DNA of 64,000 nucleotides from assembly GCF_032854445.1 (NCBI RefSeq), contig NC_088300.1:77367966-77431965 (forward strand), in the 5' to 3' direction. Shown here in pieces: positions 12,304 to 36,500 of this stretch (its first letter is position 1; every line of letters begins with the position of its first letter). This stretch comes from Liolophura sinensis (taxonomy: Eukaryota; Mollusca; Polyplacophora; Chitonida; Chitonidae). The notes under the pieces are model-generated. The model was not told where the DNA came from, searched no databases, and was given only the letters and a program-made list of their open reading frames with translations. The position numbers were made by a program, and so were the translations under genes.

Positions 12304-15300
12304 CTAAGCCTTTGCTGTGTGAGCGACTTTATTTTCTTTATTGAAGCTAACAGTCAACTGAGGGACCTGTAGCCTGATGGGTTTCCCAGCAGCCGTGACT
12401 GACAGTCTCCTCTGGGCCTGTATAGCTTGTATTTTGAGGCAGGTCTCTGCTGTGGTGAGGGAATGTGCCGCTGTTAACGCCCCCTGGCAGTCCCTGTGTA
12501 GCTGACTCTCTCGCCCGGCTGCCATCTCCAGGGCATGAAAGGCACGCGAATACTCAGTCACTTTTGGAGTGTGTCGCCGTGTTAACATGCTTAGCTCTCC
12601 TAGAAGTCGCTCACTCTCATTTAGAGCACTGATAAGGCTCTCTGCAAAGAACGTAGAAATTTTATATTATAGAAACACTATATATATATATGTATGAAAT
12701 GTATGGATTGTAATTCAAAACTACATGTACATGTGTTGACACTTACTGATCTAACAGACAACGTGCAGATGGTCATGGGTTTCTCCCACCATAATGCTGC
12801 CCGTCAACGTATAAGTGAAATATACTTGAGTACAGTGTACACCACCAATGAAATAATGAAATAAAATACTGTTCTAATATGAATGGCATTGAAGAACAAT
12901 TTCATTAATATCTAAAGAATTCTACAGTGAAATGTGCACATTTCCCTAAAGGCAAACCATTTTACTGTGAAAACATTTTCTGTCTGATTCAAGTACAACT
13001 TCAGTGACTTTTAAACTCTCTTGTAAATTTACTGACAATTCAAATTTCCTGTACGTACTTGTGAATTCACTGTTCCATTATACTGGTCCCAGTGTTATTC
13101 TTTGTATTTATCATTTCAATTGTTCTGTAATGTTATCCATGCTCAGGTTAATTTCACAAGTACTAAGAGTATTATGTTTATGAATGGAGGTGTCTTCAAA
13201 GTGATTTACATAGCATATATAGCAGTACGTTCATAACATCAGCGGGTATACCTCAGCAGGCTTTCACCTCACCTGCTGATAAAGGTAGCAGCATTTCTCG
13301 TTATTGAACCTGGTGGCCCAGTTATCAAAGAGCCAATCAAATGGCCGAAATGCCCCAGAGATAAGGAAAATCCTTACACAAAATGTTATTGGATGGTTTA
13401 GTCACGTGATGAACTAACCACTCCTACAACATTGCCAACTCAGCTTACCAGCTGGAGTAGTACAAGAGATTGAACAATTTTTCAACACTAGTGAATTGAA
13501 AGCCTTTCAAAAAAACTTTCCAAAAAAATACAACGGTACTGAAAAATGATAATCTGGTGTGTATACCGACTGGCAGTGGGAAGTCATTGTGTTTTGAAGC
13601 GCTGCCTATCATGTATGACAGGGGGCCAATCTCCAAGCTTGGTTGTGAAGGTTTCCTCTGTGAACTAGGCCTATTAGCACCAGCGTCAGTGAAAGAGACC
13701 CTGGATCGGGGACTAGCAGGTAAGTAGTTCCTTTTGAAGTGGCTTAATGAATCTTGAACGTTTTCCTTTTCCACCTCCAACTGGGCTTGCCATTTTTCCA
13801 GTTGTTTTAGTCAGATGTCTACTTTATTTAATTTATTTGTACACGCAGTGCAAACATACAAAGTTCGAACATGCGACAGTCAGTACTTTGTCATAGAATT
13901 CTGGGTCAGTTATTCGCATTAGCTTTTGTAATTGGCCCTGTTTTCCGACATTAGCACAGCATAAAAGGCAGACGTTGGATATGTTGGCAGCACCTCTCGA
14001 AGAGGTAGCCATCTTGCGCGCCAGTAAAGTTTGTCACATCCCCGTCATCTAGGTAAATATTGTTCGACCAAACAGCCTATGCGAAGCAGTGTTTCACTGG
14101 TTGATGCTGCTTGTAAATATTCATTGTGCTGGGCTTGCCAATAATGAGAAATGCTACTACCTTTATCAGCGGGTGAGGTGAAAGCCTGCCGAGGTATATC
14201 TCCTATGTTATGAGCGTAATTGAGCAAGGCCTGACCTGACATTACAACCACAAACTTTACACCATAAATCTCAATATACCCTGAACATGAACATGGTAAA
14301 GAGCCTTTGCAGTCAGAATCAACTTGCCCCACCACTGCCATGAGGAACTTGGCCCAGGTCATTTATCCACATCCCTTATGTTGACAGTGATTGGGTGACT
14401 GATAATCATGTATATTCATGAGGAAGATAGAGGGCATTAAACCTGTCCTTATCCAGGTTACACAAGCATGAGGAAGATAGAGGGCATTAAACCTGTCCTT
14501 ATCCAGGTTACACAGCATGAGGAAGATAGAGGGCATTAAACCTGTCCTTATCCAAGTTACACAGCATGAGGAAGATAGAGGGCATTAAACCTGTCCTTAT
14601 CCAAGTTACACAGCATGAGGAAGATAGAGGGCATTAAACCTGTCCTTATCCAGGTTACACAAGCATGAGGAAGATAGAGGGCATTAAACCTGTCCTTATC
14701 CAAGTTACACAAGCATGAGGAAGATAGAGGGCATTAAACCTGTCCTTATCCAGGTTACACAGCATGAGGAAGATAGAGGGCATTAAACCTGTCCTTATCC
14801 AAGTTACACAGCATGAGGAAGATAGAGGGCATTAAACCTGTCCTTATCCAGGTTACACAAGCATGAGGAAGATAGAGGGCATTAAACCTGTCCTTATCCA
14901 GGTTACACAGCATGAGGAAGATAGAGGGCATTAAACCTGTCCTTATCCAGGTTACACAGCATGAGGAAGATAGAGGGCATTAAACCTGTCCTTATCCAGG
15001 TTACACAGCATGAGGAAGATAGAGGGCATTAAACCTGTCCTTATCCAGGTTACACAGCATGAGGAAGATAGAGGGCAGTTGTTTAGTTCAATGCCGCACT
15101 TGTGGATTCCCACTCAATGCTTGTAGTGGTCTCATTACAATAAGCGGTTGATGACATCACAACTACAGCATGGGAAAGCTTCAGCCTATGTGTCCACATG
15201 GTGATCTCCCCTGACACAGATAAACAGTAACTGAACGGAATGGGACGGGCTCACCTTGGTAACTGTCCTGATCCATGGGTAGATGTACTCCCTGGGCAGG

Positions 15301-18300
15301 GATCTGGTGACGTGTGGTGTCCAGGGCATGGGCTAACAGTTTGTGGTCTGAGCTCAGCTGTGGTAGCTTACAAATCACAGGGGAAAGGCCAGAACTCTGA
15401 AACAAATGGCTACAGACAGTCCAGTGCCTACACTAACATACAGTTGTATCATCGCACGGGGAATAGAAGCATATTTGTCACAATCAAGACATTCCATTTT
15501 CCTCCAGGAATCTTCAGTAAACAAGCATCTACACTTAAAGAGAAATGCAAAGAAGAATTGTAATATGCCCATCAAGGTACATTTATTGGACTATGACTTT
15601 AAAGAGAGGATGGGGGTGGGGGGAAATGCAGTCACTGAGAAAATATTCTCTACAAGTACACGATATATTTGTTACTTATTACGTTTAATGGAAGACAAGC
15701 ATATGTTTGTGGCTCTAACTTGAGACATCAGATAACTCTATAGACACTATCTTGCTGATGTTACCTGTAAGTCCAGCTGTTCATCCAGCAAGTTTGCCCG
15801 TTTAACTTGCTGCAATTCAGATCTGAGCTGTGTTTCTGTCTGTCTCAAGGACTCCAGCTCCTCCCATAAACTGTTTAGCTGACCCTGTTTGAGAAATGGT
15901 TACAATGTTGGTATAGGAAGTCTAGAGTCACACAAACTCTTCAGCTGGCCCTGTTTGAGAAACGGTTACAATGTTGGTATAGGAAGTCTAGAGTCACACA
16001 AACTGTTCAGCTGGCCCTGTTTGAGAAATGGTTACAATGTTGATATAGGAAGTCTAGAGTCACACAAACTGTTCAGATGTTCCTGTGTGAGAAATGGTTA
16101 AAATGTAGGTATATGAAGACTAGAGTCACACAAACTGTTTCAGCTGACTCTTGCATGAGAAATGGTTACAACGTTGATATGTGGAGACAAATAAACTGTT
16201 CATATGACACTGTGTAAGAAGTGGTTAAAATGCAGGTATATGAAGACTAGTCACACAAAGTGTCTCATTTTGTGTGTGAATGGCTACAATGTTGGCAAAT
16301 AAAGTCATGAGTCAAACCAACTGTTCACCTCATTCTGTGTGTAAATGGTTACAATGTTGGCAAACAAAGTCATGAGTCACACAGTTCAGTTCAGTTCATG
16401 CTGTGTGAGAAATGCGCTAATATAGTCTTGGCATATGACATCAAGAGGTTTCAGACTGTTAACTGTTCAGAGGTTTCAGACTGTTAACTGTTCAGAGGTT
16501 TCAGACTGTTAACTGTTCAGAGGTTTCAGACTGTTAATTGTTCAGAGGTTTCAGACTGTTAACTGTTCAGAGGTTTCAGATTGTTCAGAGGTTTCAGACT
16601 GTTAATTGTTCAGAGGTTTCAGATTGTTCAGAGGTTTCAGATTGTTCTGAGGTTTCAGACTGTTCATTGTTCAGAGGTTTCAGATTGTTCTGAGGTTTCA
16701 GACTGTTCATTGTTCAGACATGCAGCACATACACATGAATTTAATACATACTGTTATGAGGTAAGTCATCATTTCAAAACAAATCAGTCACAGGGAAATG
16801 ATTTATAGAACATAAAACCATATATTAGTTTGCCAGTTAAAGACTTGTCACATAACGTCAGAACTTGAAACAAGTTGAATATTTATTTAGAATGAAACAT
16901 CAAGATCTTCTTTGTAAATATTTTGGTGACAATCACTTCAACAATCATTACTTTTGGACTGTGAAAGTGAATTAAACTAGTTGATAGCAAGTTGAAATGG
17001 CCCCTCTTTTATTTGCCTTTTTTATCATGTATCCTTATTCATTGCTGAATATAACTGTCTCCAAGACAGGTCAATATCATATTACAGGCACAGCCTACAG
17101 AAAGATTTGCCTCCTGCACAAGTGAGATAGCTTTGGCTTACCATGGCACATTTCTCCTGATCATGCAGTGTTTTCCTGGCTGCTGCGTCCAGATACAACC
17201 ACTGTAAGTATCCACTATACGTGATGTCCAGATCCAGTTGAGTCTCCTTACTCCGCTCAATTGTAACCTGCAAGATAATCACTGTCTTCATACACACAGT
17301 CGCTGGAGATGACCGCTTTGCAATAAAGACTGGCAAAATATGTGTTAGCACCAAAACTGTTTTAAAACGATTGGGACTGCAAGACATGAAAGCAGTAACA
17401 AAGCACTTACATATCCTTACACTCTGTTGTCATTACAATGGACACAAATGTGAGGGGTCTGATTTCATTTCACAGCCATTTTATCAAGACTGAAAAAGCT
17501 GATTTGGTTGTGAAGGTACATGCAGGAGTTCATGAGTGGTGTTAAATGATCAAAACAATGTTCATGTACTAAACAAAGACCTCACAGCTGTGAAATCCTT
17601 GCACTGTTCTGCTAGCTTATTTCCAGGTAAACTAAACATTATAAGAGGCATAAAATTACACCTCTCTGTCATTAACACAAAAAAAGCCACGCATACATGC
17701 ACACACAAAACTGACATACCATTCAGCTTCTTCCGACATTACCCTAATATGCAAATGGAGAATCATCAAGGCCTGGGCCTGCTTGTACGAAGCCTTCTCA
17801 ACCAGCAATGTAGGCTTTACACTGCCATGGCCCTTATATGCTCGTAACGTTAAGGGGTCTTCGTGGGCCCAGGTGGTTAGTGTGCTAGCCCAGCTAAATG
17901 ACCTAGGAGCCTCTCGCCAGTGTTATTGCTTCCTCTCTGGTCATATGTGAGAAGGTCTACCAGCAACCTGTGAATGGTTGTGGGTTTGCTCCAACCATAA
18001 TGCTGGCCGTCATTGTACAGTAAAATATTCTTGGGAATGACGTAAAACAACTGTCAAATACATTAAATCCAGTCAAATAAGCTAATGCATTTATCTCGTG
18101 GCTGTGAGCTCATATCCCATGCTGTGAGCTCATATCCCATGCTGTGAGCTGTGCACATGACACGCTGTACAGGGACTTTACCTTCTTAGCTGGAGCCCGC
18201 TCATGGTTATCACCGCCTGTACAACACAAATTGAAAAAACACAATAGCAAAATTGACCACAATACAGATTCCAGTTTTTCCAAAATGGCAACAACGAAAC

Positions 18301-21300
18301 AAACAGATGCTACATGTATCTGACACTGGGACTGAGGACACACTGACCATTTGCTTTACAGGGCTAACATTGTAAACTACATTACAAAGCAAAGAAATAA
18401 ACTGTACACAACTCCTCAAATTCCACGCAAACATGACGTTGTGTCATAAGATTAATATACAGTCTGACAGTCTCCTCTGTAAATAGTAGAAATTCTCAAA
18501 AGTTAATCAAGATTCAACTAAATGGGTTTCTTCATTTAGCATTTATGTGGGTGAGGTTACCTGGAAACATGGACATGGACAGAGTGGAGGCATTCTCAGC
18601 AGTGATGGCAGAGGCGTCGATGTTGTGCATGAAGGAGACCTCCTCGTGGGTGGGGGTTGAAGTCTTACCACTGGTAGAATGAGGCTGATGGGAGCCCAGC
18701 GGGGTCTGCTGAATGGCCGTGGAGAGAGCGGAGCTGGACTTTTTAGCAGATCCTTTTCTCTTTGTCACTGTCTTATTGATGCTCTGAGAGCCCCTGACAA
18801 CGGACCGATTTGAGGTAGCGCTCTGTAATAGATCACAACCGATCAGTCTGGGAACAAAATTATCTCAACATCCCACAATAGGCTTCCCTTTGGACCTGAC
18901 AATGCCATCCATTCACGTCTCTGATGTCATTTTTCTGACACATAATGCTCTTTAGCTGAAGGTGGAGATGACTTCACAATAAAATTAAGAATGATACCAC
19001 AAAAGATGATAAAACATGTAGTGACTTGGGGGGTTCATAGCAATATATATACAGGTTTAAAGCAACAAAACAGGCAGGCTGCATAGCAAAGATAGAGTGT
19101 GTCACAATGCAGACAGACTGCATAGCAAAGATAGAGTGTGTAAGAATACAGGCAGACTGCATAGCAACTATAGTGTATGTCAAAATACAGGCAGACTGCA
19201 TAGCAAAGATAGAGTAAGTCAGAATACAGGCAGACTGCATAGCAAAGATAGAGTGTCAGAGTACAGGCAGACAGCATAGCAAAGATAGAATGTGTCGGAA
19301 TACAGGCAGGCTGCATAGCAAAGATAGAGTAAGTCAGAATACAGGCAAACTGCATAGCAAAGATAGAATAAGTCAGAATACAGGCAGACTGCATAGCAAA
19401 GATAGAGTAAGTCAGAATACAGGCAGACTGCATAGCAAAGATAGAATGTGTCGGAATACAGGCAGACTGCATAGCAAAGATAGAGTAAGTCAGAATACAG
19501 GCAGACTGCATAGCAAAGATAGAGTAAGTCAGAATACAGATAGCCCACACAGCAAAGACAGAGTAAGTCAGAATACAGGCAGACTGCATAGCAAAGATAG
19601 AGTAAGTCACAATACAGGCAGACTGCATAGCAAAGACAGAGTAAGTCAGAATACAGATAGCCCACACAGCAAAGATAGACTAAGTCAGAATACAGGCAGA
19701 CTGCATAGCAAAGATAGAGTAAGTCAGAATACAGGCAGACTGTATAGCAAAGATAGAGTGTGTCAGAATACAGGCAGACTGTATAGCAAAGATAGAGTGT
19801 GTCAGAATACAGATAGCCTGCACAGCAAAGATAGAGTAAGTCAGAATACAGGCAGACTGCATAGTAAAGATAGAATGTGTCGGAATACAGTCAGACAGCA
19901 TAGCAAAGATAAAGTAAGTCAGAATACAGGCAGACTACATAGCAAAGATAGAGTGTGTCAGAATACAGGCAGACAGCATAACAAAGATAGAGTGTGTCAG
20001 AATACAGGCAGACTGCATAGCAAAGATTGAGTGTCAGAATACAGGCAAACTGCATAGCAAAGATAGAGTAAGTCAGAATACAGGCAGACTGTATAGCAAA
20101 GATAGAGTGTGTCAGAATACAGACAGCCCGCAAAGCAAAGATAGCTTTTGTCACAATACAGGCAGACTGCATAGCAAAGATAGAGTGTGTCGGAATACAG
20201 ATAACCTGCATAGCAAAGACAGAGAGTGTCAGAACATAGGCAAACTGCATTACAAAGCTAAATTGTGTTAGAATACGAGCAAAATGTACAGCACTGTCTT
20301 ATCAAGAGATCAAATCCGTAGCAGAGTAAAGAGCTCACCTTGTTGACACTGGTTTGCCGTGATCCCCCACCTGCCTTAAACTTGTCGCAACTCTGCATAT
20401 ACCTGGAGGATATCACACGTACTGGAAGACAAGATTGTCAGCCTATCAGTAACAATATAATCCACAGCCTGTTAAGAGGTTTGCTAAACCAAACTTGAAG
20501 CGCACATATCCATTGTATAAGTTACACACTCTGTACACTCTGTGTATAGAGTGTGCCTCTGTACACTTTTATATAACAGTAAACACAACTGTTCATGTGA
20601 TAGTGATCAGTTATGTTCCTCACAGTTTAAAGGAAAAATAACTCCAAATGTTACCAGGCACTGTTTCCAGGCACTGCTCAAGAATATTTCACTTATCAAC
20701 AGTGAAGAGGTTTAACGGTAAAGAAGCAGTTAAAGCAGCTTTATACAGCTGGTACCTGACAGACCTGACTAAAGGCTGGAGCAGACATTGTGTGAGATGG
20801 ACTTAATCTCATAAGCCAGGTGCCCTCTGGCTGAGGCGAGGGTGCCGTTTACATGTACATCAAAGCATGTTTTACAAAGCTGTATTAACACAAATAAATT
20901 GATTTATTTGTTTGATTGACGTCATACTCAAAAATTTTTCTCTTCTATGATGGCGTTCAGTTTTATTGCTGGAAGAAATTGAAAAGTTTTGGTTAACCAT
21001 TGACAAAAGTTTTGGTTAACCACTGACCTTTGCCAAGTTACTAATGAGCTTTCTACCTTGTGAATTCAGAAGATGGCTGGTATAAATGATACCTTTTGAC
21101 AAAAAATAACCCCACTTTGTTTTCTTTACACATAAACCATATTTACTCTAAATCTTCAACCTTTTCAACCAATAAAACACTTTTTTCAATGGCATTTATG
21201 CACACAATTATTATGAAAAATGATGATAAAAATAATTTCTTTGCATCATAAAAGAATAAATGCATGAATGCTTTGGGTTTAACGTTGTACTCAACAACAT

Positions 21301-24300
21301 TTCAGTCAAATGACTACGTGGAGCCATTAGGTGTGTGTACATATACTATGCCTTCTTGTGGCATGGGGGCGAGTCTATGCTGCCCCCAATGCAGCATCAT
21401 TCCGAAGACAGCAGACATGGCACCCCACCCAGTCGGGTTACACGGACACCGGGCCAACCAATCCTGTTCCCTTGCACTAACCTCTCAGTGCTGGGCGTCA
21501 ACAAGGCAGGAACAAGTATCTTTTAAAAAGTCTTTGATATGACCCCGTGTACCCGCTCTCCCGACTTCGAGGTGGACTCTCTAACCATTAGGCCACCAAA
21601 GCAGCTATGTCATTAAAGATGCAAGCTTTATAAAACTGTGCAAATTATTTCTCTACGCCCCATAGTTCACTCAGGATGTTTCAAAATACTGGTTGCAGTA
21701 GTAGATGAAACTGTTGAAGAATTAGGATAACTTGAACTAAAAGCAAATCTACACTTCTTATATACCTGCTTTGTGAACAGACAAAATATGTAAAAGACCA
21801 AATGTTAAATGTTTTGTCAAGCAATTGCACACAGCTGTGAAAATGTGCTCAGTTTGTGAATGATTTCTCATCATGCTGATTACTCTCACAGTCAGTTTTA
21901 TAGGTGAAGGAAATCAAAGTGTCGGTGTAAACCAATGATGTTAATGGCGAGTAACTTATGTGTGAGTGCCTGGTGTAAACCAATGGTGTTAATGGTGAGT
22001 AACTGATGTGTGAGTGCCTGGTGTAAACCAATGGTGTTAAATGTGAGTAACTGATGTGTGAGTGCCTGAAGTAACCAATGCTGTTAATGGCGAGTAACTG
22101 ATGAGTGAGTGCCTGGTGTAAACCAATGGTGTTAATGGTGAGTAACTGATGTGTGAGTGCCTGAAGTAACCAATGCTGTTAATGGCGAGTAACTTATGTG
22201 TGAGTGCCTGGGGTAAGCAATGGTTTTAAAAATTGCGAGTAACTGATGTGTGAGTGCTCGGAGTAAACCAATGGTGTTAATGGTGAGTAACTGATGTGTG
22301 AGTGCCCGGTGTAAACTAATGGTGTTAATGGTGAGTAACTGATGTGTGAGTGCCCGGTGTAAACTAATGGTGTTAATGGTGAGTAACTGATGTGTGAGTG
22401 CCCGGTGTAAGCCAATGGTGTTAATGGTGAGTAACTGATGTGTGAGTGCCCGGTGTAAGCCAATGGTGTTAATTGCAAGTAACTGATGTGTGAGTGCCTG
22501 GAGTAAGCCAATGGTGTTAATTGCGAGTAACTGATGTGTGGGTGCCTGGAGTAAACCAATGGTGTTAATGGCGAGTAACTGATGTTTAAGTGCCCGGAGT
22601 AAACCAATGGTGTTAATGGCCAATAACTGATGTGTGAGAGCCCAGAGTAAACCAATGGTGTTAATGACGAGTAACTGATGTGTGAGTGCCCAGTGTAAAC
22701 CAATGGTGTTCATGGCAAGTAACTGATGTGTGAGTGCCCAGAGTAAACCAATGGTGTTAATGGCGAGTAACTGATGTGTTTGCCAATGCATGACACACAC
22801 ATGTTCACCAGCAGTCACAAAGCAATCTCAAATTGTAAGCTAATGGAAGGCAAGTGACCTGTGATAAACTACATGTAACATACAGTGCAACCTGAGGAGA
22901 GCCACCACACCTGAAGATAAGGATCAAACTTGGGAAGAGCCACCAAACCTGCAGATATGGATCAAACCTGTGGAGAGCCACCACACCTGAAGATAAGGAT
23001 CAAACTTGAGGAGAGCCACCACACCTGAAGACAAGGATCAAACTTGGGGAGAGCCACCACACCTGAAGACAAGGATCAAACTTGAGGAGAGCCACCACAC
23101 CTGAAGATAAGAATCAAACTTGAGGAGAACCATCACACCTGAAGATAAGGATCAAACTTGAGCAGAGCCACCACACCTGAAGATAAGCATCAAACTTGAG
23201 GAGAACCACCACACCTGAAGATAAGGATCAAACTTGAGCAGAGCCACCACACCTGAAGATAAGGATCAAACTTGAGCAGAGCCACCACACCTGAAGATAA
23301 GCATCAAACTTGAGGAGAACCATCACACCTGAAGATAAGGATCAAACTTGAGCAGAGCCACCACACCTGAAGATAAGGATCAAACTTGAGCAGAGCCACC
23401 ACACCTGAAGATAAGCATCAAACTTGAGGAGAACCATCACACCTGAAGATAAGGATCAAACTTGGGGAGAGCCACCACACCTGAAGACAAGGATCAAACT
23501 TGAGGAGAGCCACCACACCTGAAGATAAGCATCAAACTTGAGGAGAACCATCACACCTGAAGATAAGGATCAAATTTGAGGAGAGCCACCACACCTGAAG
23601 ATAAGGATCAAACTTGAGCAGAGCCACCACACCTGAAGATAAGCATCAAACTTGAGGAGAACCATCACACCTGAAGATAAGGATCAAACTTGAGGAGAGC
23701 CACCACACCTGAAGATAAGGATCAAACTTGAGGAGAGCCACCACACCTGAAGATAAGGATCAAACTTGGGGAGAGCCACCACAACTGAAGATAAGGATCA
23801 AACTTGAGGAGAGCCACCATACCTACAGACACGGATCACACTTGGGGAGAACCACCACACCTGCAGATACGGATCACACTTGGGGAGAACCGCCACAACT
23901 GCAGATACGGATCACACTTGAGGAGTACCACACCTGCAGATTGGGGAGAACCACCATACCTGCTGATACGGATCACACTTGGGAAGAGCCACCACACCTG
24001 CAGACACGGATCAAGCCTGAGCCGTGTAACCACACCTGAAAATAAGGATCACACTTGGGAAGAGCCACCACACCTGCAGATACGCAACACATTTGAGGAA
24101 AACCACCAAACCTGCAGATACGGATCACACTTGGGAAGAGCCACCACACCTGCAGATACGCAACACACTTGAGGAGAACCACCACACCTGCAGATACGCA
24201 ACACTCTTGGGGAGAACCACCACACCTGCAGATACAGATCACACTTGGGAAGAGCCACCACACCTGCAAATACGCAACACATTTGAGGAGAACCACCACA

Positions 24301-27300
24301 CCTGCAGATACAGATCACACTTGGGAAGAGCCACCACAAATGCAGATACGGATCACACTTGGGGAGAACCACCACACCTGCAGATACAGATCACACTTGG
24401 GAAGAGCCACCACACCTGCAGATACGCAACACATTTGAGGAGAACCACCACACCTGCAGATACAGATCACACTTGGGAAGAGCCACCACACCTGCAGATA
24501 CGGATCACACTTGGGGAGAACCGCCACAACTGCAGATACAGATCACACTTCAGGAGTACCACACCTGCAGATTGGGGAGAACCACCATACCTGCTGATAC
24601 GGATCACACTTGGGAAGAGCCACCACACCTGCAGACACGGATCAAGCCTGAGCCGTGCAACCACACCTGAAAATAAGGATCACACTTGGGGAGAGTCACC
24701 AAACCTGCAAATACGCAACACATTGGAGGAGAACCACCACACCTGCAGATACGGATCACACTTGGGAAGAGCCACCACACCTGCAAATACGCAACACATT
24801 GGAGGAGAACCACCACACCTGCAGATACGGATCACACTTGGGAAGAGCCACCACACCTGCAAATACGCAACACATTTGAGGAGAACCACCACACCTGCAG
24901 ATACAGATCACACTTGGGAAGAGCCACCACACCTGCAAATACGCAACACATTTGAGGAGAACCACCACACCTGCAGATACGGATCACACTTGGGAAGAGC
25001 CACCACACCTGCAGATACGGATCACACTTGGGGAGAACCACCACACCTGCAGATACAGATCACACTTGGGAAGAGCCACCACCCCTGCAGATACGCAACA
25101 CATTTGAGGAGAACCACCACACCTGCAGATACAGATCACACTTGGGAAGAGCCACCACACCTGCAGATACGGATCACACTTGGGGAGAACCACCACACCT
25201 GCAGACACGGATCAAACTTAATGTAAGTTTGCAGTCTGATTTGCATGATCTCAAGCACACAACCTCGCTGATCAAGGGTTTACTTGGACACAAAACAATA
25301 TCAAAATATACACACTACCTTTCTTCTTGCCAGTCCCGCTTTTCTTTGCTGAAGTAGGGCTGAAAGAAATTGGAACAATAAATCACATTTTGAGTAAAAA
25401 TTTTTGAATCGCTAAATGAAAACAGATTTGCTGATAAAGTTTTATAGCTGACTAAAGGATGGGCGAGTTGGGGATTGACAATTATCCTAATTCCGCATAC
25501 ATAAGATCAACTTTCAGTTCAATTTCTGCACATTTTTAATTTGATTTTGGAGACAAAATATTGGTTGAAATGGCCAGTTTCAAGGCTTCACAAAAAAAAC
25601 ACAACTGTAGCAGTCTACAGAGAATAATGTCTTCAGAATGTGTTTGAATAAACACCTTGCAAAAATGCGTAAAGGTCCAAGAATTACAGTACACATTCTG
25701 TGTAATCAACCCCTCATACATTAACGGAAATTTCTGGATTTAAAAGTTTTTGAGGTAGAGGCTTTCAAGACGTGCTGAGTATTGCCCGTCCGTACCCCTA
25801 AACAACTAACCACAAGGTACAACACTCACCAGCTGGCTGAGCTTCCCAGCATTTCCCGCAGTGAGCTGGTCTGGCTGACATTACTGACAACTGACATCTG
25901 GTCATCAGAATGGTCACCTCCTTGCCTCAGCTGTCCCTCATTCCCCGGGCTCTGCGGCTTCAGAGAGTCATCAAAGTTAGGCTGAGGGTACCTGTTTGAG
26001 CTGACAGGCAGGTGTGGAACATGCCTGCCACTAGGGGAGATAACTGCACCATGCTCACCTGCTTTAACCTCTCGACCTGTTCCATCTGTGAACAGATCAC
26101 TGGTACATGTAGACTACCACTGAAGTGTTCATAAGATTGGTAATAGTGAGTGAGTGAGTGCTTTGGGTTTAACATCGAACTTAACAATTTTTCAGTCATA
26201 TGACGACGAAGGAATCCTTAGAGTGCATGTATTGTGCCTCCTTGTTGCAGGATGGATTTGCACCGCTCTTTTATCTTGTGCTGATTCACTGAGATGCCTT
26301 ACTGAAGGCAAGTAAGCTGCCCCGCCCGAGCCATTATACTGATACGAGTCAACCAATAACTGCACTATCCCTTCATACTGAACACCAAGCGAGCAAGTTA
26401 CAACTTTCTCTTTTCAGTCTTAGGTGTGACTTGACCCAGGATTGACCCTGGATCTACTGCTCCCGAAGCGGACGCTCTATGGTGATAGTGTCACAGATTA
26501 CTGATGCCACAGCAGCCACGTTCATGGTGGAGTTAAACAAGCCAAACATGACGCTATATGTCTGATATACAATGCTGAGGATGAACAAGGGGAAAACATG
26601 TGATCTAGTGTGTATCTGCACCTTAGCTTCTGCCTGTAGACTGGGCATTAGCTACCAAAACACATCTGATTTTTAACCAATCTTTCAGGACTAGGTTGAT
26701 TTAATTCCTGTAATTCTCCCTTCCTAATGCACATGATTCCGCTTACCTTGGACAGTGATATCTTTGTCATTCCATATCACCAAAAAACAAAGGTATGCTT
26801 TCAAACAATATGTGGGATACTTTATTGATATATATAGTCTAGTGTTATCTTTTCTTTTAATATAAAATAAAATATATGTAAATTCTATTTTGAAATGCCA
26901 ATCCTGTTTATATTTTAAACAGTTTGCTTGAAAAATTAGATGTACGAGGGTTGAGAAATGGGTAATTATTTAGCAGTTGCCTAAATGTCCCCATGACACC
27001 TTATTGCCACTACGGCATCCAGGAGCAGTGGCCTAAATGGCCCCATGACCCCTTACTGCCACCAAAGCATCCAGGAGCAGTTGCCTAAATGGCCCCATGA
27101 CACCTCACCAAGAATTTTCCTCACCAAAGCTCTGTGTGTTGTGATCGGCAAGATTGACAGGGGGAGGTAACTCAGACTCTCTGACAATAACTCGGGGTAC
27201 ATTGTCTACTGGCACTCGGCAGCCCCTAGCACCACTCCCTACCCTCCTGAAAAAACAAAAGGCCATACAGTCGTAAATGCTATAGGAATATCTCACCGAT

Positions 27301-30300
27301 TATTGACAATTTACTTTGAGGTAAAAAATATACAGAAAACGATCAAGCAGATATAACTTCCATCATAACAAGTTGCTAAAAAAACAACTCGAAAATGGGA
27401 GGCTAACAAAAGCGAGATTTACTAAGTCAGTATCCATCTTTTCAAATGAAACGTCTGAAACATAGACCAAAAATCCTCTCCAGGAGTCAAAACAATTGTA
27501 ACTGCAACCATCTTTTAAAAATTCTAAGCTTTTCACAAGGGTTTGTCGAGAAGGAAAATATAATCAGTAAAGCTGGCAAAGCTACCAATCCTAATAATAA
27601 TAACTAGTCCAGGCATTACCATGTAAATGTAAAACACTTGATAATGATCCCAGCATGTGAAGCAAAAGCTTGTGAAACCTCTTACATTTACATGGTGATG
27701 CCTGTACTTCATTATTATCATTATTGAGCCTATGTACAGCTGAGAGTCTGAAGCAGTATATAATATCAATACTGTTGATGAAGATAACAGAGGTGAACTA
27801 ACGAACACAGAAATGAAAACAAATAAATCCAGACATACACCATGGGTCAAAATGACAAATTCAGCCATGTTTGATTTAGCATACTGCAGGTCCAGAACAA
27901 CACAAACCTTCTCAACAACAAATTTCCACACACTACATCTGCCTACAGGTATGTCTTTAAGCAAACTGTCTATTCCACAATTTTGGGGAATATAAAATAT
28001 CCCAATGAGATCACACCTTCCTAAGATCTAGCTGTTGCCTTATACCACAGTCCATACTACAATGAGTTTACAAGGCTGTGTCCAGTCATACTGCTTAAGC
28101 TATTACACTCCTCAAATTTGTTATCATTACATCAAGCTCAACAGAAATTCTATTTCACCTACATTTTTTAAATTAATTGACAGGTGTTTAACGTCATAAT
28201 GAAGAAATTTTGCATTTAAGTGATAGCCTTCTGCTTTAGGGGTTGAGGAAACACATGTGCCAGGAAGAAGCCACCATCAGGTACCAGACAAGTGATAGCC
28301 TTCTGGTTTAGGGGCTGAGGAAACCTGTGCCAGGACGAAGCCACTGTTAGGTACCAGACAAGTGACAGCCTTCTGGTTTACGGGTTGAGGTAACACGTGT
28401 GCCTGGAGGTAACCGCTGTTAGGTACCAGACAAGTGATAGCCTTCTGCATTAGGGGTTGAGGAAACACATGTGCCAAACAAGTGATAGCCTTCTGGTTTA
28501 ACACATGTGCCAGGAGGTATCCACTGTTAGGTACCAGACAGGTGTGCCAGGAGGTAGCCACTGCTAGGTACAAGACAGGTGTGCCAGGAGGTAGCCACTG
28601 TTAGGTACCAGACAAAACCTCTGACTTAAAGCTTCAGTCTAAGTACCTTAATTCCTCAACCTTTATCAATCTACACAGAAAAATGCCTTCAGAACATGCT
28701 TGAATCCACACCTTGTAAACATGTGAATTGCAGAAACAAAGGCTAGATCTGAACACATGGCATCATCGTATATCAGTTTCACATACAGAAAAGAGAGGAG
28801 GCTCACACTCGTGGAGAATGACAGATGACTTTGACGGGAGACTGGACATATCCTGTGACCGTATCAACATCAGATCGGCTGAGGTCTGTGCTCTGATGAG
28901 GGGCGTCCACAAGCAGAACACTCGGCTGATCCGCGTTGTACTTTACTCGAGACAGAGTGCCCTATAAACAAATAAATATGCACGACACGTTAACTCTGAT
29001 GAGGGGCGTCCACAACCAGAACACTCGGCTGATCCGCGTTGTACTTTACTCGAGACAGAGTGCCCTATAAACAAATAAATATGCACGACACGTTAACTCT
29101 GATGAGGGGCGTCCACAACCAGAACACTCGGCTGATCCGCGTTGTACTTTACTCGAGACAGAGTGCCCTATAAACAAATAAATATGCACAACAAGCGTTA
29201 ACAAGCGTTCTCTATTATCTCTGCTTAACCAAACATTAACATCCTTCAATTGCTTTATCTAATTTATTTACACCATCCAGCAGTCTCTAAGGGAAATCTG
29301 AAGATAAATAATATCCTGAATTTATCTCATCACATATATGCTTTGGCTGTATGTGGAAGGGTCTGACAGCAACCTGCGGATGGTTGTAAAACACCAATCA
29401 AATAAATAAATAAATATATGCTTGAACTAACAAATGGCATTTAGGCTACATTTAATATAGTTTAATAACAGACAGATCATTTGCAGCTTAACTCTGTATG
29501 CTTGGAGTTCTACATGTCATTTAGAATCATTGTTATGCAATGTGTGTTACGTGTTGCATAAGTGCTGCCGCCACTGACGTATCATGCCGAAGACTCCAGA
29601 CATGACATCCCCCACCCACTCACATTATACTGACACCGGGCCAACCAGTTGTGTTTCCTTGCTCTAACCACTTAGTGCTGAGCGCCAAGCAAGACAGCAA
29701 TAAGTACCATTTTAATAGGTTCCAGCCTGGATTTCCGAAATTCAGGACGACGCTCTAATCACTAGGCCACCGAAGCAGTTCTGCAGACGAAGGTGCTGTA
29801 CCAGTAGCCATATTTTATCAGAAGGTCTCATGACAGCAAAAACCAGAGCCGAAAATCATGTGCCTAAACTGACACTTCTAATGATACCGCACATGACAGA
29901 AAACTGATAGGAATACATAATATGCTCAACAGTTTAGCACAAAGTCACTACACCAGCTTAAGTGATAAGGTTTCTGCATAAAATAGACAGCAAAGTCCCG
30001 AACTAACTTATCTAACAGGTATCCCTGAGATCCAGGTCACTGTCTGACAAGTCTAGAACACCAGATGGCTCAGAAAACATTGCCAGTCTCTCATTTGACA
30101 TCAATCCCCGGCTGACTTACCTTATCATTGTGATCTAGGTCACTGTCTGATAAGTCTAGAACACCAGATGGCTCAGAAAACATTGCCAGTCTCTCGTAAG
30201 TCATCAATCACCCGCTGACTTACCTTATAATTGTGATCTAGGTCACTGTCTGACAAGTCTAGAACACCAGATGGCTCAGAAAACAACACCAGATTGCTCA

Positions 30301-33300
30301 GAAAACAACGCCAGTCTCTCGTAAGACATCAATCACCGGCTGACTTACCTTTTCATTGTGATCTAGGTCACTGTCTGACAAGTCTAGAACACCAGATGGC
30401 TCAGAAAACAACACCAGATTGCTCAGAAAACAACGCCAGTCTCTCGTAAGACATCAATCACCGGCTGACTTACCTTTTCATTGTGATCTAGGTCACTGTC
30501 TGACAAGTCTAGAACACCAGATGGCTCAGAAAACAACGCCAGTCTCTCATAAGACATCAATCACTGGCTGACTTACCTTTTCACTGTGATCTAGGTCACT
30601 GTCTGACAAGTCTAGAACACCAGATGGCTCAGAAAACATTGCCAGTCTCTCATAAGACATCAATCACTGGCTGACTTACCTTATCATTGTTATCTAGGTC
30701 ACTGTCTGACAAGTCTAAAACACCAGATGGCTCAGATAACATTGCCAGTCTCTCATAAGACATCAATCACTGGCTGACTTACCTTATCATTGTGATCTAG
30801 GTCACTGTCTGACAAGTCTAGAACACCAGATGGCTCAGAAAACATTGCCAGTCTCTCATAAGACATCAATCACTGGCTGACTTACCTTATCATTGTTATC
30901 TAGGTCACTGTCTGACAAGTCTAGAACACCAGATGGCTCAGAAAACATTGCCAGTCTCTCATAAGACATCAATCACCGGCTGACTTACATGTACCTTATC
31001 ATTGTGATCTAGGTCACTGTCTGACAAGTCTAGAACACCAGATGGCTCAGAAAACAACGCCAGTCTCTCATAAGACATCAATCACCGACTGACTTACCTT
31101 ATCATTGTTATCTAGGTCACTGTCTGACAAGTCTAGAACACCAGATGGCTCAGAAAACATTACCAGTCTCTCATAAGACATCAATCACCAGCTGACTTAC
31201 CTTATCATTGTTATCTAGGTCACTGTCTGACAAGTCTAGAACACCAGATGGCTCAGAAAACAACGCCAGTCTCTCGTAAGACATCAATCCCCGGCTGACT
31301 TACCTTTTCATTGTGATCTAGGTCACTGTCTGACAAGTCCAGAACACCAGATGGCTCAGAAAACAACGCCAGTCTCTCGTAAGACATTAATCACCGGCTG
31401 ACTTACCTTATCATTGTGATCTAGGTCACTGTCTGACAAGTCTAGAACACCAGATGGCTCAGAAAACATTGCCAGTCTCTCATAAGACATCAATCACTGG
31501 CTGACTTACCTTATCATTGTTATCTAGGTCACTGTCTGACAAGTCTAGAACACCAGATGGCTCAGAAAACATTGCCAGTCTCTCATAAGACATCAATCAC
31601 TGGCTGACTTACATGTACCTTATCACTGTGATCTAGGTCACTGTCTGACAAGTCTAGAACACCAGATGGCTCAGAAAACAACACCAGATTGCTCAGAAAA
31701 CAACGCCAGTCTCTCGTAAGACATCAATCACCGGCTGACTTACCTTTTCATTGTGATCTAGGTCACTGTCTGACAAGTCTAGAACACCAGATGGCTCAGA
31801 AAACAACACCAGATTGCTCAGAAAACAACGCCAGTCTCTCGTAAGACATCAATCACTGGCTGACTTACCTTTTCATTGTGATCTAGGTCACTGTCTGACA
31901 AGTCTAGAACACCAGATGGCTCAGAAAATATTGCCAGTCTCTCATAAGACATCAATCACCGGCTGACTTACCTTTTCATTGTGATCTAGGTCACTGTCTG
32001 ACAAGTCTAGAACACCAGATGGCTCAGAAAACATTGCCAGTCTCTCATTTGACATCAATCACTGGCTGACTTACCTTATCATTGTGATCTAGGTCACTGT
32101 CTGACAAGTCTAGAACACCAGATGGCTCAGAAAACATTGCCAGTCTCTCATAAGACATCAATCACTGGCTGACTTACCTTATCATTGTTATCTAGGTCAC
32201 TGTCTGACAAGTCTAAAACACCAGATGGCTCAGAAAACATTGCCAGTCTCTCATAAGACATCAATCACTGGCTGACTTACCTTATCATTGTGATCTAAGT
32301 CACTGTCTGACAAGTCTAGAACACCAGATGGCTCAGAAAACATTGCCAGTCTCTCATAAGACATCAATCACCGGCTGACTTACATATACCTTATCATTGT
32401 GATCTAGGTCACTGTCTGACAAGTCTAGAACACCAGATGGCTCAGAAAACATTGCCAGTCTCTCATTTGACATCAATCACTGGCTGACTTACCTTATCAT
32501 TGTGATCTAGGTCACTGTCTGACAAGTCTAGAACACCAGATGGCTCAGAAAACATTGCCAGTCTCTCATAAGACATCAATCACTGGCTGACTTGCCTTAT
32601 CATTGTTATCTAGGTCACTGTCTGACAAGTCTAAAACACCAGATGGCTCAGAAAACATTGTCAGTCTCTCATAAGACATCAATCACTGGCTGACTTACCT
32701 TTTCATTGTGATCTAGGTCACTGTCTGACAAGTCTAGAACACCAGATGGCTCAGAAAACATTGCCAGTCTCTCATAAGACATCAATCACCGGCTGACTTA
32801 CCTTATCATTGTGATCTAGGTCACTGTCTGACAAGTCTAGAATACCAGATGGCTCAGAAAACATTGCCAGTCTCTCATAAGATATCAATCACTGGCTGAC
32901 TTACCTTATCATTGTTATCTAGGTCAGTGTCTGACAAGTCTAGAACACCAGATTGCTCAGAAAACAACGCCAGTCTCTCGTAAGACATTAATCACCGGCT
33001 GACTTACCTTTTCAGTGTGATCTAGGTCACTGTCTGACAAGTCTAGAACACCAGATGGCTCAGAAAACAATGCCAGTCTATCATCGCTTTTCTTTGGTGT
33101 GATTCTAATTAAAAATGAAAAAGCAACAAATTGTATTCAAGCAATCATTACCTAACATGGCACACAACAATTATAAAATACATCTTAATCACTAATATTT
33201 GGAATGTGAAGTAAGAATAAGTATGTACATGCTTTGGCTTTAAGTTGTACTTCACTATTTTTCAGTCATACGACGATGAGTAGTCATTCAGTGCGTGATA

Positions 33301-36300
33301 ATGTGTGTCTTCTCCTAGCCGGATCATGCTGCTAAAGGGCTGCCTCAACTTTAGCATCAGGCAAGACACCCCACCCAGTCACATTATACTGACACCAGAC
33401 CAACCAGTCCCTTTTCCTTCATTCAACCTCTTGGTACTGGCACCAACAAGTATCATTTTTAAAGACCTTGATATGAACTGACTTCAAGGAACATGAAGAG
33501 AAACAATAGATTTCCTGATTTGAATTACATCAGGTTTAGGGCACTGTTTCCAATTCAGCTAGACAGAATTTCTGAAACACACAACCCTTCCTAAGACGCA
33601 ACATATGGCTTTACACAGAAGACAGTGTAGAAGGGTCAGTCCGTCGTGGAACAGTTAACCAACCTGCGTGGTGTAAGCCGAGTGTCACTGGGAGGTCGAG
33701 ACACTCGAGAGTGCAATCTTGCTCGGGGACTGGATGTCAGCTGCTCTTGTTCAAGGCTGTGAAATGCATCAGAATCTAAAAGCACATGTATACAACTTGT
33801 CATTCACTAATTACAGGAAACAACAGCTGTAGAAAATATTAACTTTCATTAAAATAATGCATGATTTTGATCCAAAGTTAGTGAAATTTTATATGGTTAA
33901 GAGCTCAGTGCTTCAGAAGGGGCATACAAGCACAAATACCCTTAAAAAATTAGATGATATGCATCTGAAATTAAAACACAGCGTACTATATACAACTGAA
34001 GGTTTGTATGTACGTCTAAGTGTCTGAAACTAACGTACATGCAAGATTTAGAGCAGAAAGTCCTGTCAAAATCAAAAGTAAATCTCCACAGTGAACCATG
34101 TGCTCAACGTTCCCCACCACGTGTTAGTTTTCACCCACTCTAGGCTACAGCAAAAGCTTCTGTGCCACCACCCACAGCCAGGGAAAATACATACTGTGAT
34201 ATTTTTTGTGACATTCTCGAGTGTTTGCCAAGAAGATGTAGCAAAGGGTTAAAAATAGTCTTTTTAGTTCTAAACTAGTAACAAGTTTATAGGGGCCAAG
34301 AAATGTTTAGACAGGTATAAGAGAATTTACCAGTTGCATCAGGCAGGTTACCACAGAAAAAAATAATACTGCAACCCCTGCTATCAAAGCACAAGGAATG
34401 AAAAGTACAGAATAAAATTGTCAGTGAGCGATTTATTGAAATACACCCCACACAGGTTGATGCAAAATGTATTAACTTCATCCAAATTCATTCCTCTTGC
34501 AGAAGAGCTGAAATAATTACTTTATTCTAGAATGTTTTGAGGTAATTTATATGTAGGCCTAAATTTACTTGTATACCGGGTAGTCCTATATAACTACAAA
34601 GGAAAGAATCTCTGCACGTGTCGGCCTATGTATACATGTATGCACACGTAGGCCTATCCCTTTTCTTCACCCCCTTTCACTCAATCAGACACAGAATGTC
34701 TTCTCAAATGATCCTGTAAACTAAGCTGCTGTATTCCAGTGTTAATGGGAAACAGGTCACACATGATTTGACAACAACCCATCTTATCTCACCAGCTGGA
34801 CGGGGCTTTGCAGCAGTATTCACAAGACGGCCCTGAGCTAGTGGTCTCCTTCAAAACAAACAAGAACATAACATCATAGGTGCGATCAATTGGGTTACGA
34901 AAACTAACACAGACATAACATGTTAATTGTTAAGATACTAAACATGGCAAGGAAATTTTTTATCAGCAGGGTTTTGTGCCTTACCCGTACTAAGAGTGTT
35001 CAAATGGCCTAAAAGGACGACCACTCAGAAGGCCTGTGCATAGGCATGAGAAGTTTTCTCCCATAACAAGCCTTTCAAAGAGTATTTTATTTATTTCATC
35101 GATGTTTTGTGCCGTACTCAAGATTATTCACTTAAATGCCGGTGGCCAGCATTACAGTAGGAGGAACCAACGACCATTTGCAGGATCATTCAAACAGTAG
35201 TATATATTTATATACAAATGGACAGGCATGAAACACTGTTAATCTTTGGTTCCCAATCTGTATTGCTCCTTCTAACACTAGACTTCCTCGTCAATCCAAC
35301 ACATTAGAAGTAGTTATTCTTCGTAACTCTCCCAACACTATGTGTTCATCCATACCGTGAGTTACATTCTGCAATCTTGGCTACAATGTACAAAACCACT
35401 TGTTGCACGAATGTGCCTCAACTGATCTAACGATGCACTGACGTGCCAAGCAGACAGAGCCGCACTGACTTCTGATATAAGACAGGATGTCCAACATGCT
35501 CTCTGAGTATTGGTTGCAGAACATTAAGTTTTCAACGCTGTAAAGACACAACATGTAAAAGGGTGCTTCAAAACAAACACTCATTGTCCCTACTCCAATA
35601 TTTATGACATAAACGATTCCTGCGCACAAGTTGCCTCCACTCTGATGGGTTGGTCTCCATATTCGTCGGGTGTCCGTATTCATAAGGTGTCAAGCTATCA
35701 ATACTTCGCACATCACACAGAGCTTCATGCATATTCAGTTTATCCTGACCGCAAAGGCTAAAAATAAATCACATAGAACATCCCTCAGTTCTTTTGATTC
35801 GTTGACAAGTCGTTGCAAACAAACTCTTTGGACATGTCCCCATGCTGTGGCAAAATGACAGCCTCAATTAATACAGTTCCCACTCGACAGCTGGCTCTTC
35901 TGACGTTTCGCCTGTACTGCATGTGACCCTTTGACAAAGGTCAGGGAAGCTCACTAAACAAAACCATGCGAGGCAAAGACTGAGGTTTCATGATTTGATG
36001 AAACTGATTATTGCGTGAAGCAAACACGTTTCGTCAAAACACCAAGGATTTACTCCAGCCGTTCATCAGAACATAAAAACATGTATGCAGACATGATTTA
36101 TCTGTCATTGATGAATACATCTACAAGGTCAGGGTTTTATTAAAGATTTAATAATTAAGATTTAAGGCCGTTATTAAGATTAAACAGTGAGTTTCTCTGG
36201 GATCATTCCAGGGGTGCGTGAAGCTGTCTTAGCAGCTCGGTATAGTAGCACACTGTTAAATCTAATATTTAACTAATAATAATTCACTCGAGGAGCTAAC

Positions 36301-36500
36301 TAAACCACATGTTATTACTTGGCTAACCATTGCATTAACGTCAGTATAAATGGGGAAAATTTAGAAAGTACACTTTCATGAACTGGCCAGTGAATTAGGA
36401 TTCCAAATGACGATACTGATATTACATCCATTTACCTATTTCTCCTTATCGCGGCTTTGTCTTCAGGCACAGGCTTGTACAGAGCTCGCTTCGACGCCAT
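12304..36500 (-). CDS. HAUS8: HAUS augmin-like complex subunit 8 (15 exons, 626 residues)
   Basis: HAUS8 is the microtubule-binding subunit of augmin, which recruits gamma-tubulin to spindle microtubules. Coding exons in order: 36500-36436, 34848-34793, 33775-33664, 33104-33008, 28961-28807, 27246-27109, 25991-25830, 25359-25319, 20370-20339, 18822-18561, 18216-18182, 17267-17142, 15884-15765, 15396-15255, 12641-12304. All introns are GT-AG, phases match at every join, and the sum is 1881 bases ending in TAG. Identification rests on exon 14: ALDTTRHQIP (about residues 491-500) matches ALDTTRHELP of vertebrate HAUS8 with equal spacing from LSP, and RLLGEL follows in exon 15. Residues 1-385 are Ser/Lys-rich and basic (KRKGSAKK, KKSGTGKKK), as expected for the microtubule-binding tail; 386-560 look coiled-coil. 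It is longer than the human protein (about 410). The N-terminal exons are less certain than exons 10-15. Confidence 0.88.
12750..12870 (+). mobile_element. SINE family A fragment in HAUS8 intron 14
   Basis: Reads gatggtcatgggtttctccc, accataatgctgcccgtc, cgtataagtgaaatatactt and gagtacagtgtacaccaccaa, the tail half of the SINE in plus orientation. Confidence 0.65.
13231..14213. repeat. Inverted repeat, arms of about 75 bp
   Basis: The arm at 13231-13306 (tcataacatc ... ctttcacctcacctgctgat ... ttattg) is an imperfect reverse complement of 14139-14213. The arms are about 830 bp apart and enclose the helicase fragment. The right arm lies inside an open frame, so this looks like inverted duplication of element sequence rather than simple terminal repeats. 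Confidence 0.75.
13440..14365. mobile_element. Decayed protein-coding mobile element with helicase fragment
   Basis: In HAUS8 intron 14. On the plus strand around 13540-13620 a frame reads IPTGSGKSLCFEALPIMYD, a Walker A motif followed by the Q-family helicase style LCFEALP. An adenine-run frameshift precedes it and the frame ends soon after. On the minus strand 14045-14362 is an open frame of about 105 residues (MTWAKFLMAVVGQVDSDCKG at its start) that I cannot name. Part of it (the QAFTSPADKGSSISHYW region) recurs inverted at 13231-13306. The combination suggests rearranged pieces of a mobile element carrying a RecQ-like helicase; the element class is unknown. Confidence 0.45.
14417..15080. 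repeat. 49/50-bp minisatellite, 14 units, in HAUS8 intron 14
   Basis: Fourteen almost identical units starting catgaggaagatagagggca and continuing ttaaacctgtccttatccag, alternating between 49 and 50 bp (acacag versus acacaag). Its homogeneity implies recent expansion. It does not contain HAUS8 exon sequence. Confidence 0.95.
15860..16130. repeat. Minisatellite copying the HAUS8 exon 13 acceptor
   Basis: Units of about 63 bp carry aaactgttcagctggccctg and tttgagaaatggttacaatg. On the minus strand each contains the acceptor TCTCAAACAG plus the first 18 or so bases of exon 13, followed by repeat-specific sequence. Three clear copies lie immediately upstream of the real exon, with weaker copies further out to about 16250. 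Confidence 0.85.
16445..16715. repeat. Short minisatellite in HAUS8 intron 12
   Basis: Units of about 17-25 bp built from cagaggtttcagactgtt and aactgtt, roughly a dozen in all, with mixed unit lengths towards the right end. Confidence 0.9.
17860..18065 (+). mobile_element. SINE family A copy, near full length, in HAUS8 intron 11
   Basis: Starts with a tRNA-like head (gggcccaggtggttagtgtg, an A-box-like stretch), then cctctcgccagtg, a body with gtgagaaggtctaccagcaac and ctccaaccataatgctggcc, and a tail gaatgacgtaaaacaactgtcaaata. Orientation is plus, opposite to HAUS8. Confidence 0.7.
19075..20250. repeat. 39-bp minisatellite, about 30 units, in HAUS8 intron 9
   Basis: Tandem 39-bp units with core acaggcagactgcatagcaa then agatagagtaagtcagaat. 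As 39 is divisible by three, open frames of up to 246 codons run through it on both strands. Their content is a monotonous 13-residue repeat and they are not credible genes. Some units carry a variant (cagatagcccacacagc), which shows that blocks of several units were copied together. Confidence 0.95.
20875..20995 (-). mobile_element. Weak SINE family A relic
   Basis: Reads ttgatttatttgtttgattg, acgtcatactcaaaaatttt, ctatgatggcgttcag: a degraded tail and body in minus orientation. Otherwise 20380-21260 shows nothing recognisable. Confidence 0.35.
21262..21606 (-). mobile_element. SINE family B, full length, in HAUS8 intron 8
   Basis: The right end, read on the minus strand, is tRNA-like: GGTGGCCTAATGGTTAGAGA as A box region. 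The left end is a tail with gctttgggtttaacgttgta and ttcagtcaaatgactacg. The middle carries gacatggcaccccacccagt and acaccgggccaaccaatcct. Several other copies occur in this window. Confidence 0.75.
21910..22790. repeat. 48-bp minisatellite, about 18 units, in HAUS8 intron 8
   Basis: Units of 48 bp with core gtgtaaaccaatggtgttaa then tggtgagtaactgatgtgtg. Being a multiple of three it leaves several frames open on the minus strand (up to 228 codons), but these are repeat shadows. Confidence 0.95.
22880..25215. repeat. 38-bp minisatellite, about 60 units, two subfamilies, in HAUS8 intron 8
   Basis: About 60 units of 38 bp. The left part (to about 23820) is mostly of the type cctgaagataaggatcaaac; the right part is mostly cctgcagatacggatcacac or cctgcagatacgcaacac. 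A compound block (shortened units, then cctgagccgtg) appears at 23910-24040 and again at 24540-24670, showing block duplication about 630 bp apart. Long open frames here, including one of 377 codons, are repeat shadows. Confidence 0.95.
26148..26480 (-). mobile_element. SINE family B relative with a different tRNA head
   Basis: Left end gtgctttgggtttaacatcg and ttcagtcatatgacgacgaa is the family B tail. The right end, on the minus strand, contains AGATCCAGGGTCAATCCTGG as a B-box-like region, unlike the head of the copy at 21262. Confidence 0.6.
26950..27108. repeat. Three-copy 52-bp repeat abutting the HAUS8 exon 6 donor
   Basis: Units contain gcctaaatggccccatgaca and atccaggagcag. On the minus strand the real donor reads GTGAGGTGTCATGGGG (first base at 27108). 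The next copy reads GTAAGGGGTCATGGGG (from 27056) and the third has ATAAGG in place of the donor. The repeat therefore begins with the intron side of the splice site. Confidence 0.8.
28215..28610. repeat. About 69-bp minisatellite, roughly six units, in HAUS8 intron 5
   Basis: Units carry gtgatagccttctggtttag, aaacacatgtgccaggag and cactgttaggtaccagac, with internal deletions in the right part. It contains no HAUS8 exon sequence. Confidence 0.9.
28893..29200. repeat. Three 103-bp copies of the HAUS8 exon 5 acceptor and exon start
   Basis: A 103-bp unit (gatgaggggcgtccacaa, gaacactcggctgatccgcg, gagacagagtgccctataaa) occurs three times. Each copy holds the acceptor TTTGTTTATAG and the first 65-70 bases of exon 5 on the minus strand, at 28961, 29064 and 29167. 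Only the leftmost copy continues into the rest of the exon and a donor. Confidence 0.93.
29540..29800 (-). mobile_element. SINE family B, partial
   Basis: Contains atgccgaagactccagacat, acaccgggccaaccagttgt, cttagtgctgagcgccaag and, at the right end, CGGTGGCCTAGTGATTAGAG on the minus strand as head. The tail is degraded. A 3' piece of SINE family A lies just before it at about 29340-29415. Confidence 0.65.
30010..33060. repeat. About 29 tandem copies of the HAUS8 exon 4 donor region (103 bp)
   Basis: Each roughly 103-bp unit (a few are about 121 bp) contains, on the minus strand, about 78 bases of exon 4 ending in AATGATAAG followed by GTAAGTCAGCC. The segment encodes LAMFSEPSGVLDLSDSDLDH. 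The right-most unit is the real exon 4 (33104-33008), which differs by having LALF and HTEK. The left-most unit (about 30010) has lost the donor. Nearly every copy keeps the GTAAGT; one near 32590 has GCAAGT. The unit length is not a multiple of three. Confidence 0.93.
33228..33480 (-). mobile_element. SINE family B, partial
   Basis: Reads catgctttggctttaagttg, ttttcagtcatacgacgatg, gacaccccacccagtcac and ctgacaccagaccaaccag. The tRNA-like head is absent or degraded. Confidence 0.6.
35085..35195 (-). mobile_element. SINE family A relic in HAUS8 intron 1
   Basis: Contains tttatttatttcatcgatg, tgccgtactcaagattattc, and ggccagcattacagtaggag then accatttgcagg, matching the tail and body in minus orientation. 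Confidence 0.65.

Follow-up and report, generated by a model that had tools for sequence, protein, structure and literature searches.

Tandem copies of an exon/intron boundary in the HAUS8 gene of the chiton Liolophura sinensis, probably tolerated through positional splicing

In a 64,000-nucleotide stretch of the Liolophura sinensis genome (contig NC_088300.1, positions 77,367,966 to 77,431,965; hereafter the window), a gene assigned to HAUS8 carries a minisatellite that repeats the end of its fourth exon together with the 5' splice donor, and the true donor is followed by 27 decoy copies. Two smaller arrays in the same gene repeat the acceptors of exons 5 and 11. Around intron 4, exactly one pairing of donor and acceptor keeps the reading frame. 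Similar tandem duplications of exon-intron boundaries have been called mirages in amphioxus, and the HAUS8 array is probably (about 0.75) a minisatellite of this kind, spanning the boundary and tolerated because the choice of splice sites is positional.

Results

The exon 4 donor array

True exon 4 lies on the reverse strand at 33008..33104 (97 nt, phase 2 to 0) and ends with the donor AAG|GTAAGT. Its last 72 nt form the head of the first unit of a 103-bp array that runs on the same strand over about 30029..33079. Each unit joins 72 bases from the end of exon 4 (AGACTGG...AAG) to the first 31 bases of intron 4; as in a mirage, exon sequence, boundary and intron sequence are combined in the 28 units that have a donor. 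The splice signals are also kept as in a mirage, with the exact AAG|GTAAGT in 24 of the 28 donors (23 of the 27 decoys), a 6-bp insertion at the donor in units 7, 14 and 20, and a GC donor in unit 5. The sequence of unit 29 ends before the donor. An initial annotation of this DNA, made from the sequence, had proposed a tandem array of about 29 copies with nearly all donors intact, and both statements hold, as 29 units were counted. Its figure of 78 exon bases per unit has to be replaced by 72, and the run of donors that it described after the true exon is there, but with 27 decoys instead of about 28.

Units 13, 14, 26 and 27 contain a 22-bp internal duplication, and a higher period of 309 bp was detected, both of which are usual signs of minisatellite turnover. 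After removal of the 6-bp and 22-bp insertions, the mean difference among the decoy units is 4.8%, and a single base is private to the true copy. The tail of exon 4 is therefore still near the array sequence, which would fit a recent founding of the array by exon 4 or continued exchange between the two. The array cannot be a chance occurrence. When its unit was used in a DNA search of the one assembly, all 29 matches were in the array itself.

Acceptor arrays at exons 5 and 11

At the other end of intron 4, the acceptor and the 5' part of exon 5 are present in three copies of 103 bp (28891..29202, reverse strand), with acceptors at 29167, 29064 and 28961. The frame continues from 28961 only, the last of the three, which opens true exon 5 (28807..28961, reverse strand, phase 0 to 2). 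The local sequence of the three acceptors is identical over 40/40 nt, so the sequence at the site cannot pick among them, and the whole units differ at 1 to 7 of 103 bases. Both arrays of intron 4 have 103-bp units with a similar split between exon and intron (about 71:32 at exon 5, 72:31 at exon 4). No sequence relation between them was seen by eye, and the shared length has no explanation.

The third array precedes exon 11 (15868..16383, reverse strand) and consists of degenerate 66-bp copies. The true acceptor is at 15884, and copies with at least 70% identity are found at 15950, 16016, 16082 and 16209. Use of any of the three nearest decoys, which were those tested, leads to an in-frame stop 16 codons in. 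In all three HAUS8 arrays the extra copies are on the intron side, and the frame-productive site is the one joined to the remainder of the exon. As in mirages, both types of boundary are affected. The two acceptor arrays, and the recurrence in the genome described below, are additions to the initial annotation.

Frame consequences of decoy use

Combining 28 donors with three acceptors gives 84 possible pairings across intron 4, and only one of them, the first donor with the last acceptor, keeps the frame through exon 8. Judged from the frames, a correct intron 4 product would therefore imply the use of the two outer sites. The product is identical for all 27 decoy donors and ends at a stop after residue 126, since any read-through of the first donor meets this stop within unit 2. 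The choice of donor would change the exon length from 97 nt to 200, 303 and so on up to 2984 nt. When exon 4 is skipped, joining exon 3 to exon 5 also results in a stop, and exon 4 is thus required. The earlier claim that only the first donor is productive is supported by these two results. The short N-terminal fragment that had been expected from decoy use is less likely, since the decoy stop lies at least 52 nt upstream of an exon junction in the five decoys measured, and mRNAs from decoy donors should mostly be targets of nonsense-mediated decay.

Gene model and identity

The gene model extends over 12304..36500 on the reverse strand and has 13 exons, with phases that agree for exons 1-8 and for exons 10-13 (the latter checked by reading, not by script). 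Exons 1-8 (36500 to 25319) join in phase to an open frame of 301 codons, and five further exons reach 12304. At junctions 8/9 and 9/10 the phases could not be reconciled, perhaps because the model misses a small exon or a different splice site.

The C-terminal exons (10-13) match HAUS8/augmin 8 weakly but specifically. In PDB they matched the HAUS8 chain 7sqk_H (E=1.4e-4) and AUGMIN8 9nba_H (E=1.1e-3), and all four PDB sequences at E≤10 were HAUS8 or its plant counterpart augmin 8. The Pfam family QWRF was matched at E=3.6e-5, scoring 24 bits where the cut-off is 25. Exons 1-8, including exon 4, gave no Pfam match at E≤1 and were not searched against PDB. The name HAUS8, given in the initial annotation, is therefore upheld for exons 10-13 by PDB and by the Pfam match below the cut-off, while exons 1-8 carry it only through their phase-consistent open frame. 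No second HAUS8 locus was found in the genome with either part of the gene, in a search that could miss weak matches. A second copy or pseudogene was considered and rejected, as all matches of both parts lie at this locus.

Conservation within the array

The nine donor columns of the exon 4 array contain one substitution (counted after removal of the insertions mentioned above), and an equally low number is found in 31 of the 103 nine-column windows. The extra conservation at the donor, for which the initial annotation had suggested looking, was not seen, and donor-specific selection was rejected, since the donor columns vary no less than others in the unit. The 17 variable columns in the exon part of the array are distributed 7:4:6 over the three codon positions, with no clear bias.

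Could RNA structure mark the true donor? Local hairpins that hide decoys or expose the true site were suggested by early folds and were rejected when all 28 donors were compared at five context sizes, where the opening cost of the true donor ranked 5, 6, 6, 8 and 15 of 28. Inverted repeats in the region amounted to one 14-nt pair only.

Recurrence of tandem-donor arrays in the genome

Three exact AGGTAAGT at a spacing of 74-104 bp were found 912 times in the genome, compared with 464 times for the reversed word; these are numbers of overlapping matches, not of arrays. The 17 distinct donor arrays heading the list of matches (C1, 0.5-65.8 Mb) were compared with 11 reversed-octamer arrays, of which one without a flank (L034) was dropped, leaving 10 controls. 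For the donor arrays, 20 of 44 peptides were searched, at least one per array, from the sense strand and the upstream edge only; for the controls it was 20 of 34 (two of the 34 lines being repeats), from both edges and both strands. Pfam matches with zero matched stretches were ignored in both sets, which excludes two above the cut-off in L018 and two in L012. PDB was searched with four donor arrays and no control, and six donor arrays (L005, L006, L007, L009, L010 and L015) were searched by Pfam only.

In 7 of the 17 donor arrays, an open frame at the upstream edge on the donor strand contained a Pfam family above its cut-off: annexin, core-2 branching enzyme, prominin, POT transporter, DNA-PKcs, glycosyl hydrolase 31 and EGF-like. 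An eighth array (L014) adjoins an exon for the RNA polymerase III subunit RPC1, identified in PDB at E=1.3e-9. No recognised coding exon was found by Pfam at any of the 10 controls. By Pfam alone the comparison is 7/17 against 0/10 (Fisher p=0.026), and with the eighth array it becomes 8/17 against 0/10 (Fisher p=0.012), although that array was counted from a PDB search applied to no control. Three further donor arrays were not counted as exonic: L018, which was kinase-like at E=0.042 only, L019, with no usable match, and L004, with no match. One control, L039, had a reading frame that resembled a transposase by eye. Arrays at exon boundaries are apparently widespread in this chiton genome.

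In the POLR3A-like array L014, the first donor, CAG|GTAAAT, is a weaker match to the consensus than 10 of the 13 later ones. As reading through it meets a stop after 7 residues, the productive donor should be the weaker one next to the exon. Of the 42 later sites in the annexin gene (L003), 22 outscore the first donor, and read-through stops after 2 residues. Decoy donors in L008, L012 and L016 would add repeated peptides instead of truncating the product at once. Among 18 tandem-donor arrays, HAUS8 included, 5 had a period divisible by 3 (binomial p=0.80), as expected for intronic arrays.

Surroundings of the gene

Tandem repeats are abundant in this region, making up 9808 of the 24197 bases of the HAUS8 gene (merged tandem-repeat rows) and 23464 of the 64,000 bases of the window (rows merged by hand). 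A 58-bp satellite-like array of about 145 copies occupies positions 1-8454. Outside HAUS8, the window contains an open frame for a BRF2-like transcription factor (38436-39689, forward strand; Pfam BRF2-like C-terminal cyclin repeat, E=9.9e-25) and a large chitin synthase exon (57593-59563, reverse strand; Pfam Chitin_synth_2, E=8.4e-11). A 434-aa open frame at 43057-44361 on the reverse strand looks, by eye, like a reverse transcriptase of a Penelope-like element.

Discussion

How the productive site could be chosen

The HAUS8 array probably started as a mirage minisatellite when a segment across the boundary of exon 4 and intron 4 was tandemly duplicated, and ordinary minisatellite turnover probably then expanded it to 29 units, by slippage or unequal exchange as we infer. 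U1 would be able to bind many identical donors, while exon 4 would be defined across from the acceptor of intron 3. Splicing would then take the donor with the shortest resulting exon (97 nt), and all later copies would be removed with intron 4. For the acceptor arrays of exons 5 and 11, a mirror rule would apply, in which the copy nearest the remainder of the exon wins. Rare use of a decoy would end in the stop after residue 126 and probably in decay. Position is the main remaining difference among the sites, and from established splicing models exon definition would be the simplest chooser.

The alternative in the initial annotation that the array is neutral and its decoys are tolerated fits best, based on the lack of donor-specific conservation, the lack of a clear codon-position bias, the 5 of 18 periods divisible by 3, and the recurrence at other exons.

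Several observations weigh against this explanation. In mammalian work, occupation of many strong donors can shift the choice to the intron-proximal one, the reverse of what is proposed here. Three exonic arrays out of eight, L008, L012 and L016, remain open to read-through over 65, 181 and 91 residues, and their first donor would not, from these frames, be the sole one that avoids an early stop. Exon 4 itself has no homology support of its own in the Pfam search of exons 1-8. Furthermore, repeats overlap only 3 of the 24 HAUS8 splice boundaries, compared with 177 of 400 random intronic 40-mers (Fisher p=0.002). Such arrays may therefore not be wholly harmless, since boundaries are relatively spared repeats; this sparing would fit weak selection against arrays together with tolerance of the remaining ones.

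Alternative explanations

The array could be beneficial if its intronic donors recruit additional U1 just downstream of exon 4 and thereby promote inclusion of the exon. With 27 intronic sites, 23 of them exact, the material for such an enhancer is present, and skipping of exon 4 leads to a stop. U1 bound downstream of a natural donor boosts exon definition in human PAH exon 11, and authors working on exon-specific U1 (ExSpeU1) suggest a possible benefit from normal U1 bound to consensus sites in introns (PMC5933811, PMC4822034). However, the exon 4 donor is already the best-scoring of the gene's 12 (8/9 consensus matches), the donor columns have no extra conservation, and the acceptor arrays would need a separate reason; we consider this explanation unlikely. 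It is just as doubtful that a large set of genes in this genome carries perfect decoy arrays whose U1-binding runs strengthen the adjacent exon, with copy number tuning exon definition. If true, these arrays would be a natural counterpart of exon-specific U1 therapy.

The identical early stop from all 27 decoys, at least 52 nt from the junction where measured, would also suit a rheostat in which a share of the transcripts, set by copy number, is spliced at a decoy and degraded, so that array length tunes the HAUS8 dosage. The donor is not conserved, however, and a device specific to HAUS8 is hard to square with the same anatomy at unrelated genes, some of whose units stay open to read-through, which makes the rheostat rather improbable. 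We regard as slightly less probable still that the gene model is wrong, with exon 4 unused and the array a plain intronic minisatellite. The missing Pfam match of exons 1-8 and the junctions 8/9 and 9/10 would agree with such an error, but exons 3 and 5 are joined in frame only through exon 4, eight exons in phase give 301 open codons, and other arrays of the same type adjoin conserved exons. It is very improbable that the array is a source of new exons or introns, or that its AG|GT sites support recursive splicing, with some copies already acting as acceptor and donor. Two-way AGGT sites do exist, with human tandem-repeat genes reported as enriched for such introns (PMC10809524), and intron gain by way of a mirage has been proposed for the globins of amphioxus (PMC3087553); yet no pyrimidine-rich acceptor was seen by eye before AAG|GT in the unit, and a 103-bp unit shifts the frame.

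Comparison with known systems

How splicing singles out the true site when identical decoys are present has long been asked, mostly with built constructs. Reed and Maniatis in 1986 reportedly used artificial constructs with duplicated splice sites, in which identical sites stood in tandem in few copies. Compared with these, the chiton locus is natural, with 28 donors and three acceptors around one intron and exactly one frame-keeping pair; in the annexin and POLR3A-like genes, many decoys even beat the first donor in consensus match.

The source animal was first published as Liolophura japonica, and the name was later corrected to L. sinensis (PMC11068029, PMC12441733). A haemocyanin domain family of molluscs gave 8 matches in the genome. 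RNA-seq of digestive gland, foot, gill, gonad and heart has been published for the species, from an animal other than the one whose genome was assembled (PMC11068029). The term mirage for boundary-spanning minisatellites outside amphioxus did not occur in the titles and abstract openings searched, which were mostly without subscription papers; the word is also used in the literature for a class of transposons.

Tandem arrays of AGGT splice sites are also described for the human polyubiquitin gene UBC and for VCX3A (PMC10809524). The sites of UBC mark off coding monomers, with stochastic splicing, whereas the chiton array is intronic, and its 103-bp unit is not a multiple of 3, has no evident acceptor and contains stops, so that it does not delimit coding units as a dual-specific array of the UBC type does. 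Human genes in segmental duplications also have internal tandem repeats at exon-intron boundaries, and these are able to change splicing, but those reported are linked to novel introns in recent paralogues (PMC2812944), while no second HAUS8 locus was found here.

The closest likeness is with the mirages of amphioxus, in which a boundary between exon and intron, at whichever end of the exon, is tandemly duplicated in the manner of a minisatellite. Many of the copies carry splice signals, and regular splicing was reported as undisturbed, as assayed by RT-PCR (PMC3087553, PMC3902484). Mirages were reported in Adh3, the globins BflGb6 and BflGb9, and troponin C, with similar repeats in PGBD5. The chiton arrays, known here from DNA, agree with them in every structural feature compared. 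They differ from the cases described there in their host, a mollusc and therefore another phylum; in copy number, with 28 donors in HAUS8, compared with 6 units in one haplotype of BflGb6 and 3 in the other; and in having three arrays in one gene, two of which face each other across one intron. The mirage kind is thus already known, and what is new is the phylum, the pair of arrays facing each other at a single intron, the number of copies relative to the globin cases and the sampled recurrence. This extends the amphioxus phenomenon to a second phylum and suggests that it may be overlooked in minisatellite-rich genomes.

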